64,000 nucleotides of DNA from Oceanipulchritudo coccoides (GCF_010500615.1 NZ_JAAGNX010000001.1:697531-761530); one strand, 5' to 3'. Positions 24,423-30,113 are shown, counted from the stretch's first letter. The notes: generated from the letters alone by a model not told the origin. Numbers and translations are program-made.

Positions 24423-24439
24423 GGTTGGTGTTCACCAAT
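24423..24439 (-). terminator. Possible hairpin at the YcaO-like gene end
   Basis: TTGGTG-TT-CACCAA forms a 6-bp stem spanning the last codons of the leftward YcaO-like gene and the gap before the convergent methyltransferase gene. There is no T-run on the exit side, so terminator activity is uncertain. Confidence 0.25.
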
Positions 24440-25340
24440 AAAAAGTATTCAGGGCACCGTTCAGGTATTTCTTCGAGGGCATGCGGTAAAGGACCCGCCA
24501 GACTGTAGCGTACTGGGTCCAGGGACCCTCGACTTTTTCGTCAACGAGCACCTCCGGTGCAGGAGCCTCGCCTCGCTTGTTGATCGCTGACCGGACATGC
24601 TCCAGAAATTCCCGATGACCCTCCGGGAGCGAGTAGTAGAGGACGCGTCGTTCCATCGGGTTTGAGACTGTCTCGAGGTCGTCCTGCTCAAAACCCGGAT
24701 TGTCCAGGTAGTAGTGCGAGAGTGCCGCCTGAGCACGTTCCATTTCAACCGTTGCCTGCCAATATGCCGCTTCTGGCTTTCGGGCTGCCGAATATCCATA
24801 AGCGTAGTAGCCTCCCTTGGATTTGCACCAAGTCAGGATTACGGAATCCTTTCCAAGCGGATTTTCGATCCTGTAGGCAGAGACGCCCTTGTCGGGAGCC
24901 TCATACTCCTGCATCGGCAACAAGCCTTCCCACCAGGCAACAAGACAATACCGCTCTGCCGCTTCTGATAGTGCTCGTGCCCGGACTTGGCTGTCGAATA
25001 GTCCCGGAAATGCCGCCATGCCCGAAGAGGTCGCGTCTTCATCAAATCCGTGCAGTTCATAAAATCCCCCTTGGCAGAGATAGTACAAGGCCCAACGCTC
25101 AATCGCTTCCGAGATGGCTTTGTGCCGCGCGACCATCCCCGATTCATGGGTGCCTGTCCCGTCCGCCGTACTGAATACTTCATTCGTTTCCCGCTCAAGA
25201 TAGAGGCGCTCCGACAAGCTTGCATTCGCTTGAAATAATGCGCGCCCTCGGACCTCAATGCGACTGTACTCAATCTTTTCGATGGGCCCATTGTGACGCG
25301 ATAGGACCCGCGCATATCGAATCGGTGCCAGATTGAGCAT
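24432..25340 (-). CDS. Divergent YcaO-like protein
   Basis: YcaO proteins use ATP to activate amide bonds, most often in peptides, to form azolines, thioamides or amidines. Three segments follow the family pattern in order: GTGTHES with A..KAISEAIERWALYYL (residues 61-88), RARALSEAAERYCLVAWW (120-137) and a YGYSAARKPEAAYWQATVEMERA-like segment (181-203), which parallels the family's G-G-(x)n-DPExALxRALxExxxxR motif. The conserved Glu and Arg residues expected at the ATP site are there. At 302 residues it is shorter than typical YcaO proteins (about 400 or more) and has no fused E1-like domain. No Shine-Dalgarno is seen. A small ORF of the same strand ends 34 bases upstream. Family assignment is by eye and needs profile support. 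Confidence 0.55.
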   Translation of the reverse strand: MLNLAPIRYARVLSRHNGPIEKIEYSRIEVRGRALFQANASLSERLYLERETNEVFSTADGTGTHESGMVARHKAISEAIERWALYYLCQGGFYELHGFDEDATSSGMAAFPGLFDSQVRARALSEAAERYCLVAWWEGLLPMQEYEAPDKGVSAYRIENPLGKDSVILTWCKSKGGYYAYGYSAARKPEAAYWQATVEMERAQAALSHYYLDNPGFEQDDLETVSNPMERRVLYYSLPEGHREFLEHVRSAINKRGEAPAPEVLVDEKVEGPWTQYATVWRVLYRMPSKKYLNGALNTFYW

Positions 25341-25374
25341 GGGTCGGATTCTTTAACTAACCCTAGAATTCAGA

Positions 25375-25560
25375 TTAGTACTTTTTACTAGATCCACACG
25401 GCAACGTTCCGATTGAGCCCTTAACATCCTGAATCAACTGCACGCCGGGGTTATTCGAATTCAATAGATCAAGTTTATCGGCGGACTTGACGAATCCAAG
25501 CGAGAGTAGCAATGTAGCGATAATGTGATGAACAATCATCTGGATGCGGCTTACTTTCAT
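25375..25560 (-). CDS. Possible 61-residue exported or precursor peptide
   Basis: A small ORF with ATG start directly upstream of, and on the same strand as, the YcaO-like gene (34-base gap). The product begins with a basic n-region (MKVSRIQ) and a hydrophobic run (MIVHHIIATLLLSLGFV), like a signal or leader segment. The remaining 34 residues are polar and end GTLPCGSSKKY, with one Cys, several Ser and Gly. Its first 36 bases overlap the start region of the divergent sensor kinase gene, and a GGGAG site lies too far upstream (about 14 bases). It may be a real secreted peptide, a substrate for the YcaO-like protein, or a chance ORF. Confidence 0.4.
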   Translation of the reverse strand: MKVSRIQMIVHHIIATLLLSLGFVKSADKLDLLNSNNPGVQLIQDVKGSIGTLPCGSSKKY

Positions 25561-28500
25561 GGGAGTGAAATTAGCTCCCCGCAGCAGCCAGATCCGACCA
25601 CCGCATGTGCCTTATTTAAGGTAGATTTTTCCCTTTACTTTAGCCAATTCATTCTGCTCACCCTGTCCCTCTGGCTTTTTCCGTTGGCCCTTGTCGAGGG
25701 CGACTGGAGACCGGACTTGGGCAACCCGTATCTTCGAGAGCTACCGGCGGGGGATAAGGTGGCCAGTGAGTACACCTGGAATGTTGTCTGGGATCGAAAA
25801 GGACGAGCCTATCTTGGCAGGGAGCGCTTATGGCGCTGGGACGGGATGGAGCTTCAACCGATGGGGCCGGATCACTTTCGCCTACTGCGCGGACTGGCAT
25901 TGGATGCGGACGGAATGCTGTGGCTGGGAGGCGTGAACCAGTTCGGCGTATTAAACCCGGAAGACGGGAGTTACGAGTCACGAATGGATTGGATCCCGGA
26001 AGAGCACCGAAATTTCGGGGAAGTGTGGAAGATCCACCACAATGAGGAAGGGTTGTGGATGGGGACCCATAACCGGCTCTTTCGATTCAAGGATGGGGTT
26101 GTACAGGTTTGGAAGTTTGCCGGGCTTCATCGGGTGATATTCCATTTTGTCGGCGAGTCGGTCTTCGCGCATGAGGCCGATATTGGTCTCTGGAAAATCC
26201 AGAATGGAAACCGGGAATTGGTGAATGAGGAGTATGAGTTAGCGCTTAAAAGTCTAATCTACCTTGAAGCCTTGGCTAACGGAGACTTATTGGGCCTTTC
26301 CGATCGGGGTTTGTTTTTAATAAATCCGAAAAATCTTGAGATTTATAAACATGTCAAAATCGAAGAATTCTCTGATGTAATTATAAGTTCAGTCATTAGA
26401 ATTCATGGCTATTTAGTGGTTGGAACTATCTCTCATGGATTATTTATTCTTGATCAAAGCGGAAGCCTCATTGGTCAACTTGATGTTGGATCAAGTGTTA
26501 AAGGCGAAATTATCCTATTCGTTACAAAGGATATTTGGGGTAAGTTGTGGATTCTTACAGATCGCTCGATCTGGATTTCAGATTTTAATCTCTCAATAGG
26601 GGTTCTTAAGGATCTGGGAGGTTTATTCGATGGTCGAGTAAATGGAATTATTTGGAGAGAATCCAGAATTGGAGTTTCCTCTGATATCGGGTTTAGCGAA
26701 ATCTTGTTACAGAAAGGCAAATTACCCATCCATCAAAAATGGTCACATTATTCATCCAAGTTCACCGTACAGTATGCTGGCGGGTATTTATTTGACCGCT
26801 ACAGCAAGATATTATGGACGGACGGTGAGGAATTAAGGGAAGTGTACAATTTTCCTGGTGAGATCATGTCATTCACGGTGGCGGATGGAGACGTGCTGTG
26901 GGTTTCCCTCAGTGACCGGTTGTTGGCCACCCGATTGGACCTGTCGGGAGGATTGGAGTTGCTGTGGGAGATGAGCACAGCGACGAGCATTTTGAGGCTG
27001 GGAGCGGATGAAGGGGGCCGTGTTTGGGGATGGTCACCCCATGCCCCGCTTCTTGAGATTGGAAAATCGGGTGGGTCGGAGATGGAGCCTCGTTGGCATG
27101 AAGAGATCTGCGGATTGGATTTACGGAGGGAGAACCACGAATTTACAATGACTGAGGAAGGGCCGGTCCTTGTGTTCAAGGACAAGTTGTTGCGTCAGGA
27201 TTTGGTAACGGGGTCATGGATGGTGGGCCGGTTCGAGCACCTGAATGGAATGCCCGAGGCGGTAAAGTTCCGGTCTATGGGTGGAATGCTGAAGGGCTGG
27301 TTGATTTACCGTGATGAGAAACTCGGCTGTACACTGATGAAGGAGTTGGAATGGCCGTCGCAAGGCGATCCTGTCTGGCAGGTAATTCCCTGGATTGACA
27401 TGACTTCCCTTGGCCAAATCACGGTGTTTGAGGTTGTGGATGGGGATCCGGCGAAGTTTCTTGTTGGCGGCTCAAGGGGCCTGTTACTGGCGGAGGAATC
27501 CCTGCCGGACGAGCTTCCTGAGCCACAAGCTCCGTTAATCTACGGGAATGGGGATCTATTTGAGAGTCCGCCCTCTCTTGAGTCCCGATTCGGGGAGGAG
27601 CTGTATGGCTTTCGCTTCAGTCCACCGGATGGGCAGGTTTTTCATCCTCTGCGTTTTGAGACCCGTTTAAAAGGCCTTGATAGTGGGTGGCGAGCGGCCG
27701 ACTTCTCGAGCGGGAGGGAATTGGGGCAGCTCATTGAAGGGACATACAACTTCGAAGTGCACACATTGGATCCCTTCGGCCGGGCCAGTCCTGTCGCCAG
27801 TGTGCGGATTCAGATTCATCCGCCCTGGTACCGGACAGTCTACGCCTATCTGGCACTTGTTCTGGTCACCTTGTCATTGCTCTTGCTGATCATCTGGATC
27901 ATTCTGCGGTGGTCCCGCAGACAACAAACCTATCTGGCTGGTCTTGTCCGTGAACGCACAGCGGACCTTGAGAAGGCAAATGAGTTCAAGGATGACTTTA
28001 TCGCCAATTTGAGCCACGAAATCCGGAATCCATTGAACGGTGTCATCGGTCTGATTGAGCAACTCAAACCCGGGACTCCGTTGCCGGATCGCCATGTGGG
28101 GGCCTTGCAGGGAGCGGCCCATTATCTGCAGACAACGGTGGAGGAAGTCCTTGATTTTGCCAAACTCCAGTCGGGTGAGCTGCAGATTGAAAAGGGCCTC
28201 GTTGACTTAAACAAGGTGGTCAATGGCGTGGTGGAAATCTACCGCTCTGCAGCGTCGAGAAAAGGCGTTGGGCTGACGGCCCAAGTGCGTGTGCCGGAGG
28301 GAATCGGTATTCTGTCCGATGCCGCCAAGATAAACCAGATCATTGGAAATCTGACCAGTAACGCTGTTAAATTCACGAAGGCTGGTTCAGTGCACATCGG
28401 CGTTGTTTTTATACCTGACGCGGAGGAGAGTGGAACGGTGCGCATCTGGGTTGAAGATTCGGGGCCGGGTATTCCCGAGTCCGAGAAGGCAAAAATATTC

Positions 28501-29421
28501 GATAAGTTTTATCAGGCCAAAGGCGGTGTTCAGAAAACACGGGGAACAGGCCTTGGCCTAGCCTTGGTGAAACGGTATGTGGATTGCCTTTCAGGTCAGG
28601 TTGAATTGAAGTCGGAACTCGGCAAGGGGTCCACTTTTCAGGTGGTCCTGCCAGTGGAAACGACCTCCCTTGAAGACGGGGAAACGGATATAGCTGGCAT
28701 CCAGGCAACCCGGTTGGAGGGTCTGGCCGTGCTTGTTGTTGAGGATATTGAATACAACCGGATTGTGTTGGAGGGACAATTGTCCCGGCTCGGTTGCAAG
28801 ATTGACTTTGCGGAAGATGGGCTTGAGGGGCTTGAAATGGCCATGAACAAGACATACGGGGTGATATTTCTCGATTGGGACCTTCCCGGCATGAAGGGCC
28901 TCGAGGTGGCTCGCCGGTTGCGGCAGGGCAATCACCTGGCCGAGGGAACCCATCTCATTGGCATGACCGCCTTCGCCACATCCGATGTCCGTGAAAAATG
29001 CCTCGCTGCCGGTATGGACGATTTCCTTACCAAGCCTCTCACGGGGCAACAGGTTGGGAGTCTTCTAACCAGACTGATCAAGGAGCGACCCTTGATCAAG
29101 GGCCGGGGGTTGCTTGCCGAGATGGACAATGGTCAATCGTGGGATGCAAACCTGGATCGCTGGTCAGTCTTTTATCATGGTTATCTGGATGAGCTTAAAG
29201 CCGCCATGGATACGAAGGAGCCAGAGGCTATCCGCAAAGCCGCTCACCGGCTTCTCGGGCACTTGAACATGCTGGAACTGCGTGATCTTCCCAACACCTT
29301 GAAAGACCTGCTCACTGTCGCACAGGAGGGTGACCTCATGGGCATCCATAAGGAGTGGGAAATCCTCTCGAAACAACTTGATCGATTCAGCGACGAGTTG
29401 GATCAGCTACGGCAGTCATGA
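25528..29421 (+). CDS. Hybrid sensor kinase: propeller sensor, Y_Y_Y, HisKA, HATPase, REC, Hpt
   Basis: A single-protein phosphorelay. A hydrophobic segment (LYFSQFILLTLSLWLFPLALVEG, near residues 37-60) should anchor or export the N-terminus. Residues 65-680 are repeated beta-propeller blades of the two-component-regulator type (for example WNVVWDRKGRAYLG; LALDADGMLWLGG). A Y_Y_Y-type beta domain (about 690-770) precedes the membrane helix at about 771-795. HisKA has His near 830 (NLSHEIRNPLNG), HATPase has N and G boxes (NLTSNAVKFT; DSGPGIP; GTGLGLAL), REC has acceptor Asp near 1116 (FLDWDLPG), and Hpt has His near 1240 (AAHRLLGHL). The start is GTG 25525 or ATG 25528. A stretch near 26281-26760 is far more A+T-rich than its surroundings. 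The response regulator gene converges 17 bases away. Confidence 0.9.
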   Translation: MNNHLDAAYFHGSEISSPQQPDPTTACALFKVDFSLYFSQFILLTLSLWLFPLALVEGDWRPDLGNPYLRELPAGDKVASEYTWNVVWDRKGRAYLGRERLWRWDGMELQPMGPDHFRLLRGLALDADGMLWLGGVNQFGVLNPEDGSYESRMDWIPEEHRNFGEVWKIHHNEEGLWMGTHNRLFRFKDGVVQVWKFAGLHRVIFHFVGESVFAHEADIGLWKIQNGNRELVNEEYELALKSLIYLEALANGDLLGLSDRGLFLINPKNLEIYKHVKIEEFSDVIISSVIRIHGYLVVGTISHGLFILDQSGSLIGQLDVGSSVKGEIILFVTKDIWGKLWILTDRSIWISDFNLSIGVLKDLGGLFDGRVNGIIWRESRIGVSSDIGFSEILLQKGKLPIHQKWSHYSSKFTVQYAGGYLFDRYSKILWTDGEELREVYNFPGEIMSFTVADGDVLWVSLSDRLLATRLDLSGGLELLWEMSTATSILRLGADEGGRVWGWSPHAPLLEIGKSGGSEMEPRWHEEICGLDLRRENHEFTMTEEGPVLVFKDKLLRQDLVTGSWMVGRFEHLNGMPEAVKFRSMGGMLKGWLIYRDEKLGCTLMKELEWPSQGDPVWQVIPWIDMTSLGQITVFEVVDGDPAKFLVGGSRGLLLAEESLPDELPEPQAPLIYGNGDLFESPPSLESRFGEELYGFRFSPPDGQVFHPLRFETRLKGLDSGWRAADFSSGRELGQLIEGTYNFEVHTLDPFGRASPVASVRIQIHPPWYRTVYAYLALVLVTLSLLLLIIWIILRWSRRQQTYLAGLVRERTADLEKANEFKDDFIANLSHEIRNPLNGVIGLIEQLKPGTPLPDRHVGALQGAAHYLQTTVEEVLDFAKLQSGELQIEKGLVDLNKVVNGVVEIYRSAASRKGVGLTAQVRVPEGIGILSDAAKINQIIGNLTSNAVKFTKAGSVHIGVVFIPDAEESGTVRIWVEDSGPGIPESEKAKIFDKFYQAKGGVQKTRGTGLGLALVKRYVDCLSGQVELKSELGKGSTFQVVLPVETTSLEDGETDIAGIQATRLEGLAVLVVEDIEYNRIVLEGQLSRLGCKIDFAEDGLEGLEMAMNKTYGVIFLDWDLPGMKGLEVARRLRQGNHLAEGTHLIGMTAFATSDVREKCLAAGMDDFLTKPLTGQQVGSLLTRLIKERPLIKGRGLLAEMDNGQSWDANLDRWSVFYHGYLDELKAAMDTKEPEAIRKAAHRLLGHLNMLELRDLPNTLKDLLTVAQEGDLMGIHKEWEILSKQLDRFSDELDQLRQS
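25561..25579. other. Short inverted repeat
   Basis: GGGAG and CTCCC are separated by nine bases, directly in front of the 61-residue ORF (minus strand) and inside the 5' end of the kinase gene. A possible operator or chance pairing. Confidence 0.2.
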
Positions 29422-29438
29422 AATTCTCATTACAGGAC

Positions 29439-30113
29439 CTATTCGTGAATATGGTAGCTTTCACTGAGCCCCATCTTGCGAAAGGAAGCTTTCCAGAACC
29501 CGGACTCCTGGGCGAAGCGAATCAACTCCGGGGTGCTGTGAACATCCAGCTTCCGGAATAGATTGCGCCGATGTGATTGAATAGAGGTGTCGCTGAGGCC
29601 AAGCCGCTGGCCAATTTCCAGATCGGATAGCCCGCCACCGATATAAGTGAGAATTTCCTGTTCCCGTTTGCTCAAGATTTTCTGGAAGGCGAGGGGATCG
29701 GCCTTCAATTTCCGGATTGTCAACTGCAGGCTTTTTGAAAAATAGCGCTTGTGTTGCTGTATTGCCCGGATGGCCTCGACCAGGACATCCATAGAGGCTT
29801 CGTTTTTGTCGATGAATCCCGAGAGGTTTAGTTGGTGGACCTGATGGATAGTCTTGATATCAGTCTCCGAGGAAATGGCCAGGATCCGGGTTGTCGGGTA
29901 TTTGTCGAGGACCGCCCGAGCGACCAGAATTCCTGACAACTTTGGGATAAGGATATCCAGAATGACCAAGTCCGGCTTGGAGTTGAGGATCATCTCAAGC
30001 GCTGACTCGCCGTCACCCGCTACGCCAACGACTTCCATCGAGAGCTTCTCCTTCAGCAGATTGACGAGGAATTCCTGGAACAGCAACTGGTCCTCAACGA
30101 CAATAACCTTCAT
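29439..30113 (-). CDS. Response regulator, NarL/FixJ (LuxR) type
   Basis: Receiver domain (residues 1-120) with acidic pocket VVEDQ at the N-terminus, phosphoacceptor Asp53 (VILDILIPK), Thr/Ser region ILAISSETD and conserved Lys in GFIDKNEAS. The C-terminal LuxR-type helix-turn-helix (about 144-205) includes LSKREQEILTYIGGG and IGQRLGLSDTSIQSHRRNLFRKLDV. Length 224 residues is typical of the NarL group. It is the probable output of the hybrid kinase encoded convergently next to it: phosphate would pass from that kinase's Hpt domain to Asp53. Target genes are unknown; the nearby YcaO-like unit is one candidate. Confidence 0.92.
   Translation of the reverse strand: MKVIVVEDQLLFQEFLVNLLKEKLSMEVVGVAGDGESALEMILNSKPDLVILDILIPKLSGILVARAVLDKYPTTRILAISSETDIKTIHQVHQLNLSGFIDKNEASMDVLVEAIRAIQQHKRYFSKSLQLTIRKLKADPLAFQKILSKREQEILTYIGGGLSDLEIGQRLGLSDTSIQSHRRNLFRKLDVHSTPELIRFAQESGFWKASFRKMGLSESYHIHE

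Follow-up and report, generated by a model that had tools for sequence, protein, structure and literature searches.

What is a stand-alone YcaO-family gene doing beside a small peptide gene and opposite a large sensor kinase? The question is raised by a locus in a stretch of 64,000 nucleotides (nt) from Oceanipulchritudo coccoides (GCF_010500615.1 NZ_JAAGNX010000001.1:697531-761530), which we call the window and whose coordinates count from its first letter. An earlier note on this DNA had put forward, as attractive but unproven, the idea that the locus encodes a peptide together with an enzyme to modify it and a sensor dedicated to it, and our analysis supports that reading through the fold of the enzyme, the conservation of the peptide and the co-occurrence of the genes. 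We propose, with a probability of roughly 0.6, that the locus is a self-contained, autoregulated peptide-signalling cassette. Directly underpinning this proposal are a conserved gene unit, a YcaO fold, a coding peptide, intact phosphorelay residues, and co-variation between a promoter box and the recognition helix of the regulator. All four open reading frames (ORFs) listed in the note are present with the same coordinates and lengths, and the features of the locus are as follows.

24432-25340, minus strand: stand-alone YcaO-family enzyme of 302 amino acids (aa), assigned from the predicted model, VIA-align and invariant glutamates.
25375-25560, minus strand: predicted precursor peptide gene of 61 aa, with a signal-peptide-like leader, a linker and a C-terminal core, assigned from the leader profile and homologues in the same gap.
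25378-25419, minus strand: putative core GSIGTLPCGSSKKY, with an inferred boundary, placed by its LPCG tail and as the counterpart of a segment repeated in tandem elsewhere.
25608-25623, no strand: palindrome TGCCTTATTTAAGGTA, a probable response-regulator box 47 nt from the peptide ATG, from promoter comparison and co-variation.
25525-29421, plus strand: hybrid sensor histidine kinase of 1298 aa, start uncertain, assigned from Pfam, the sensor model and invariant relay residues.
29439-30113, minus strand: LuxR/NarL-type response regulator (REC + GerE) of 224 aa, assigned from Pfam and from co-variation with the box class in relatives.

Of 89 related genomes, 15 encode homologues of the YcaO, one of these being a second copy in the source genome. 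A contig search using the single window YcaO as the query returned no matches, and an alignment-based search returned 80 YcaO loci, nearly all from Opitutales/Opitutaceae, with isolates of Cerasicoccus and Coraliomargarita among the carriers; among 387 genomes drawn evenly from the phylum there were 14 carriers, all in the order of the source organism. When the 75 YcaO loci with at least 700 nt upstream were considered, a divergent hybrid kinase homologue adjoined the YcaO gene in 70; among the remaining five are the Bdellovibrionota loci and others whose frames are broken or short. A LuxR-type regulator lay near the cassette in 43 of the 57 loci with enough flank. All-against-all clustering of the neighbours identified the kinase, the YcaO and the regulator as the only widely recurring large genes, and YcaO distances correlated with those of the kinase (r 0.94), the sensor (0.84) and the regulator (0.81), with genomes that carry two cassettes keeping separate sets. 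As for the lack of an E1 or C-protein partner, pointed out previously, no conserved gene of this kind was seen within ~9 kb, as judged by a recurrence count rather than a domain scan.

Some loci deserve separate mention. The source genome carries a second, diverged cassette (G000:C3:463184-464014, L018/L034 in our numbering of loci) that belongs to subfamily B, has a YcaO ending in KFVA and has its own peptide, kinase and regulator. Four Bdellovibrionota YcaOs were rejected as members of the cassette family. In three metagenome-assembled genomes (MAGs) of Bacteriovoracaceae (L108, L109 and L110) there is no divergent kinase, and the YcaO gene follows or overlaps an OppA/DppA-type solute-binding-like gene with a shared C-terminal motif, LPPxDFxWIG/LG; the tail of that protein might serve as the YcaO substrate. 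Finally, in 11 loci (L042, L066, L071, L073, L074, L082, L088, L090 and others) the YcaO is followed, about +1060 from its start, by a 261-aa protein similar to a histidine-kinase-type fragment.

Is the 302-aa protein a YcaO at all? The fold comparison, which the earlier note had named among its tests, was decisive. The AlphaFold2 model, built with 56 relatives, had a predicted local distance difference test score (pLDDT) of 94.3, and in VIA-align its first 13 rows were all YcaO entries (Z 12.1-17.6), the next, unrelated row scoring Z 6.0. These entries include McbD (6gos, Z 17.6, 265 aligned residues), LynD (4v1v, 16.6), EcYcaO (4q86, 12.5), MjYcaO, the M. kandleri YcaO and a YcaO peptidase, with 6ci7 scoring 17.0. 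On the evidence of this predicted model the protein is a true YcaO, with the fold spanning most of its length. Other searches gave less: Foldseek against the PDB had no YcaO among the matches listed, a sequence profile against PDB chains gave as its sole result a weak match to MjYcaO (E 0.3), and hhalign to three canonical YcaOs reached E 1.6e-4 but put the motifs out of register, for which reason we set its residue mapping aside. The Pfam model PF02624 matched the window YcaO at E 9e-5 and 22.4 bits, below its gathering cut-off of 25.7, which is a threshold of the model and not a biological property; since a genome-wide PF02624 search did not pick the protein up either, routine annotation probably overlooks it. 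The same model matched 50 of the 56 aligned family members at E<=1e-3 (best 1.6e-9), and one relative, taken with its neighbouring pieces, exceeded the cut-off. The NCBIfam model for SagD-type thiazole/oxazole cyclodehydratases, TIGR03604, scored 21.7 bits, under its cut-off of 219.25. As to the ATP site, previously described as three segments, the motifs stand in the expected order when compared by eye with EcYcaO (SALGEYFER with KAISEAIER, NGMSAGNTRNEARVQGLSEVFER with SGMAAFPGLFDSQVRARALSEAAER, and ALERTVTE with AYWQATVE), and five glutamates (E78, E81, E126, E129 and E199) are invariant across the 56 homologues, although the correspondence fails at one EcYcaO glutamate position, to which we return below.

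The small ORF, proposed as a possible peptide gene, turned out to be genuine. Relatives with the YcaO gene conserve it, in frame, and it evolves in them under purifying selection; on these points it passed the second refuting test named in the note. Nearly every intact gap contained an ATG-started ORF of 39-123 aa on the YcaO strand, and in Opitutaceae the leaders follow the pattern MKxxxRLxLGxxSSLLLAVGFxRAADRLDPM. A leader profile trained on other genomes recovered the window ORF at E 1.2e-6 as the sole match among all window ORFs of 30-150 aa. Split-half profile tests covered ~8,200 ORFs from 73 loci; the gap ORF scored best at 64 of these loci, and only 3 other ORFs reached E<1e-3, and the ratio of non-synonymous to synonymous substitution (dN/dS) of the peptide was about 0.1-0.35 in most close pairs; these two results ruled out a chance or antisense ORF. 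NCBIfam has no model for the peptide, whose precursors were invisible to the annotation models tried.

Within the peptide, identity is 0.39 in the leader versus 0.24 in the tail. The tail contains a cysteine in 69 of 73 peptides, most commonly in the context P-C, and the LPCG tail of the window peptide is common to L019, L020 and L022. The tails in Cerasicoccus are PTWPCEV, PTFPTEV and PTYPTEV, two of the three species having at the cysteine position a threonine, a residue that a cyclodehydratase could accept. A frameshift suspected in one of these peptides (L025) was rejected because three Cerasicoccus species conserve the same frame. In several loci the core occurs in tandem, with three copies in L029/L030/L101/L106 and in L070, five in L093, two each in L113 and L060, and four in L155; examples are CAQLPCYHRDFN (three times), AFSELPCQF (five) and FCDTVCNF (four). 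Such repeats resemble, by analogy, precursors that yield several copies of one product. An adjacent precursor gene with a conserved leader and a variable core is a feature of clusters for ribosomally synthesised and post-translationally modified peptides (RiPPs), and as far as sequence can tell it is present here.

The opposing gene was said to encode a hybrid kinase with a very large propeller. Both points stand, with the qualifications that the start of the protein is uncertain and that the sensor is a double propeller plus a Y_Y_Y-type domain. Pfam and the models give the order signal anchor, sensor, transmembrane segment, HisKA, HATPase, REC and Hpt, the C-terminal Hpt-like match (E 0.0034) being below its cut-off; Pfam found no AraC-type DNA-binding domain in the chain, and the LuxR-type regulator is encoded as a protein of its own. 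No substitution occurs among 17 kinase homologues at the phosphorelay residues H831, D1117, K1170 and H1241. Along its whole length the sensor model (pLDDT 88) matches the periplasmic domains of Bacteroides hybrid two-component proteins, with TM-scores of 0.70 for BT4663, 0.69 for BT3049 and 0.71 at most, and a search of the source genome with the sensor yielded no further copy at E<1e-5. The start is uncertain because the 5' end of the kinase ORF shares 36 nt with the small ORF and because the palindrome lies inside the listed kinase frame. Between 25525 and 25680 the GTG and ATG starts of this frame occur solely upstream of the palindrome, and translation may in fact begin at a rare codon 3' of it.

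Among the large parts of the cassette the sensor is the one that changes fastest in close pairs, ahead of the kinase and the YcaO. The clearest case is a MAG with two cassettes (L070 and L093), in which the kinase modules, including the transmembrane segment, are 95% identical and the sensors 43%, with a sharp boundary between them; the YcaOs of this pair are 65% identical and the peptide cores differ.

How is the cassette controlled? Of 71 loci, 35 carry the box no more than 160 nt from the peptide ATG, whereas the rate was 2.3% in random windows and 1.3% in shuffled ones. This enrichment is partly post hoc since the box was first spotted by reading these gaps; the co-variation with the regulator is independent of that. 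Its spacing from the ATG is class-specific, at about 48, 70 or 91 nt. Regulators with a KHRFN/KHRLT recognition helix pair with a TACCG...CGGTA box, those with SRRRDIM with [AC]ACCT...AGG[TC]G, and those with HRRN with [TC]ACCT...GGTA. Across 26 loci the correlation between box class and recognition helix had a Mantel r of 0.73, with 0 of 2000 permutations as high, and a partial r of 0.55 once YcaO divergence was taken into account. Since box class tracks the recognition helix, the palindrome is very likely the cassette regulator's own site, and by the same sequence comparison the regulator very likely binds its own peptide promoter. Together with the 70/75 co-occurrence and the correlated divergence, this co-variation supports the previously suggested idea of a dedicated sensor.

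Genome scans for the box returned 5 sites in the source genome and 8 in a second genome (G029), with none in the reversed control. One site in the source genome (L139, G000:C3:238097) is a perfect palindrome, TACCTGAATTCAGGTA, 47 nt upstream of an orphan LuxR-type response regulator beside adenosylhomocysteinase. Further copies lie 191 nt (L137, G000:C2:512165) and 33 nt (L140, G003:C116:2713) upstream of genes for PEP-CTERM-like surface proteins, the former with an exosortase-like gene nearby, and both genomes have ~20 PEP-CTERM matches each. As these are two sites only, chosen after the fact, we do not claim the PEP-CTERM genes as a regulon.

In the circuit that we propose, the gene at 25375-25560 would give a precursor whose hydrophobic leader is conserved and whose C-terminal core is short and variable and in most cases contains cysteine. 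The next gene downstream encodes the stand-alone YcaO, which would activate a backbone amide of the core with ATP, most simply to cyclodehydrate a Cys, Thr or Ser beside the conserved proline. The leader would take the peptide across the inner membrane, probably via Sec, and the core, once released by a protease, would bind the double-propeller periplasmic sensor. Phosphate would then pass, as the invariant residues suggest, from His831 to Asp1117 to His1241 and on to the LuxR-type regulator, which would bind the palindrome upstream of the peptide gene, a step strongly supported by the co-variation, and thereby control expression of the peptide, the YcaO and possibly the kinase. We assume that the feedback is positive (autoinduction), and the signal may act between cells or on the producer alone.

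Several observations weigh against this circuit. Four peptides (L039, L040, L052 and L085) have no core cysteine, and L038, L039 and L111 have two peptide genes each, the second with no evident cysteine core; the second copies in L038 and L039 are revealed by the full profile. The Cerasicoccus leaders are unconvincing as Sec signals, about half of the loci have no recognisable box, and the recurrence count, which is not a domain scan of every gene, found no conserved exporter, protease/peptidase, E1 or TfuA within ~9 kb. In the enzyme, E191 of EcYcaO (a Glu eight positions before its E199) aligns by eye with Gln118, so metal binding in the window YcaO may differ. The L070/L093 mosaic could stem from gene conversion or from MAG assembly, and the solved relatives of the sensor (the BT4663 class) include a glycan sensor.

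That last point leads to the main rival, in which the kinase senses a glycan like its structural relatives, and the YcaO-made peptide is a regulated output (surface, antimicrobial or matrix) and not the ligand. The sensor has the fold of the heparin/heparan sulphate sensor BT4663 and of BT3049/BT4673, and the box stands upstream of the PEP-CTERM surface protein genes in G000 and G003 as well as of the peptide. However, neighbour recurrence revealed no conserved carbohydrate-utilisation genes at the locus, and the sensor and the peptide vary together while the kinase and the YcaO stay similar. We regard this explanation as unlikely. We give still less credit to an antibacterial peptide, modified by the YcaO and induced when the kinase detects competitors or envelope damage: many YcaO products are antibiotics, variable and repeated cores would also fit antimicrobials, and four loci have TonB-type receptor-like genes nearby (identified by inspection only), yet no immunity gene, exporter or peptidase is conserved by neighbour recurrence. 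Least probable, and very improbable in our view, is that an unmodified peptide acts as a periplasmic co-ligand or inhibitor of the kinase while the YcaO modifies another protein, as EcYcaO modifies the ribosomal protein uL16 with no precursor peptide nearby (PMC13063428), or is catalytically dead. In favour of this are the change at one probable metal-ligand position and the peptides that have no core cysteine; against it, intact Opitutales loci almost always pair the YcaO with a peptide, five glutamates are invariant over 56 sequences, and the core Cys/Thr lies beside a proline.

A broader picture can be drawn tentatively, at slightly less than even odds: Opitutales would use a diversified and hitherto undescribed class of YcaO-modified peptides as pheromones, having recruited glycan-type propeller receptors, with sensor and core swapped on a conserved kinase and private regulator-box pairs separating co-resident cassettes. 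Peptide quorum-sensing through two-component receptors is best known in Gram-positive bacteria. Most of the YcaO products known are either antibiotics or housekeeping proteins that carry a modification. If true, our proposal would provide a peptide-signalling system for Verrucomicrobiota, a phylum for which we found none described in the open-access literature, a naturally occurring series of propeller sensors paired with their ligands, and a group of modified peptides, as yet unexplored, across an order of this phylum. Since cultured carriers exist (Cerasicoccus and Coraliomargarita), the cassette is directly testable.

How does the cassette compare with known systems? Those of the Agr and ComX-ComP type place a small peptide gene, a processing enzyme, a sensor kinase and a regulator in one locus. 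The same combination occurs here, and the divergent sensor halves on near-identical kinase modules of L070 and L093 are a further likeness; in contrast, the host is Gram-negative, a YcaO replaces AgrB or the prenyltransferase, a propeller sensor feeds a phosphorelay hybrid kinase, and no exporter was found. With BT4663, BT3049 and BT4673 the kinase shares the periplasmic double propeller plus Y_Y_Y-type domain, the transmembrane segment, HisKA, HATPase and REC, but in place of their fused AraC-type domain it has an Hpt at the C-terminus and a LuxR-type regulator encoded separately, and its fixed neighbours are a YcaO and a peptide instead of a glycan-utilisation locus. Actinobacteria are known to have stand-alone YcaO clusters (PMC8442711). 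Those of the streptamidine family and of bottromycin (PMC8442711, PMC4603692) likewise have a YcaO with no fused or adjacent E1/C-protein, adjoined by a short precursor gene with a conserved leader and a variable core. Unlike the cassette, they are Actinobacterial/Firmicutes families with further enzymes, for which we found no dedicated hybrid kinase receptor described, whereas here the leader is signal-peptide-like and the unit consists of peptide, YcaO, kinase and regulator. Among RiPP clusters of Bacteroidales, one predicted cluster, BGC5, is described with a kinase and response regulator pair (PMC10352776), a likeness by description only. Open-access full texts, which leave subscription journals outside the scope, contained no description of a YcaO with a histidine kinase in Verrucomicrobia. 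Each type of component is known from elsewhere, and it is their combination that appears to be new.

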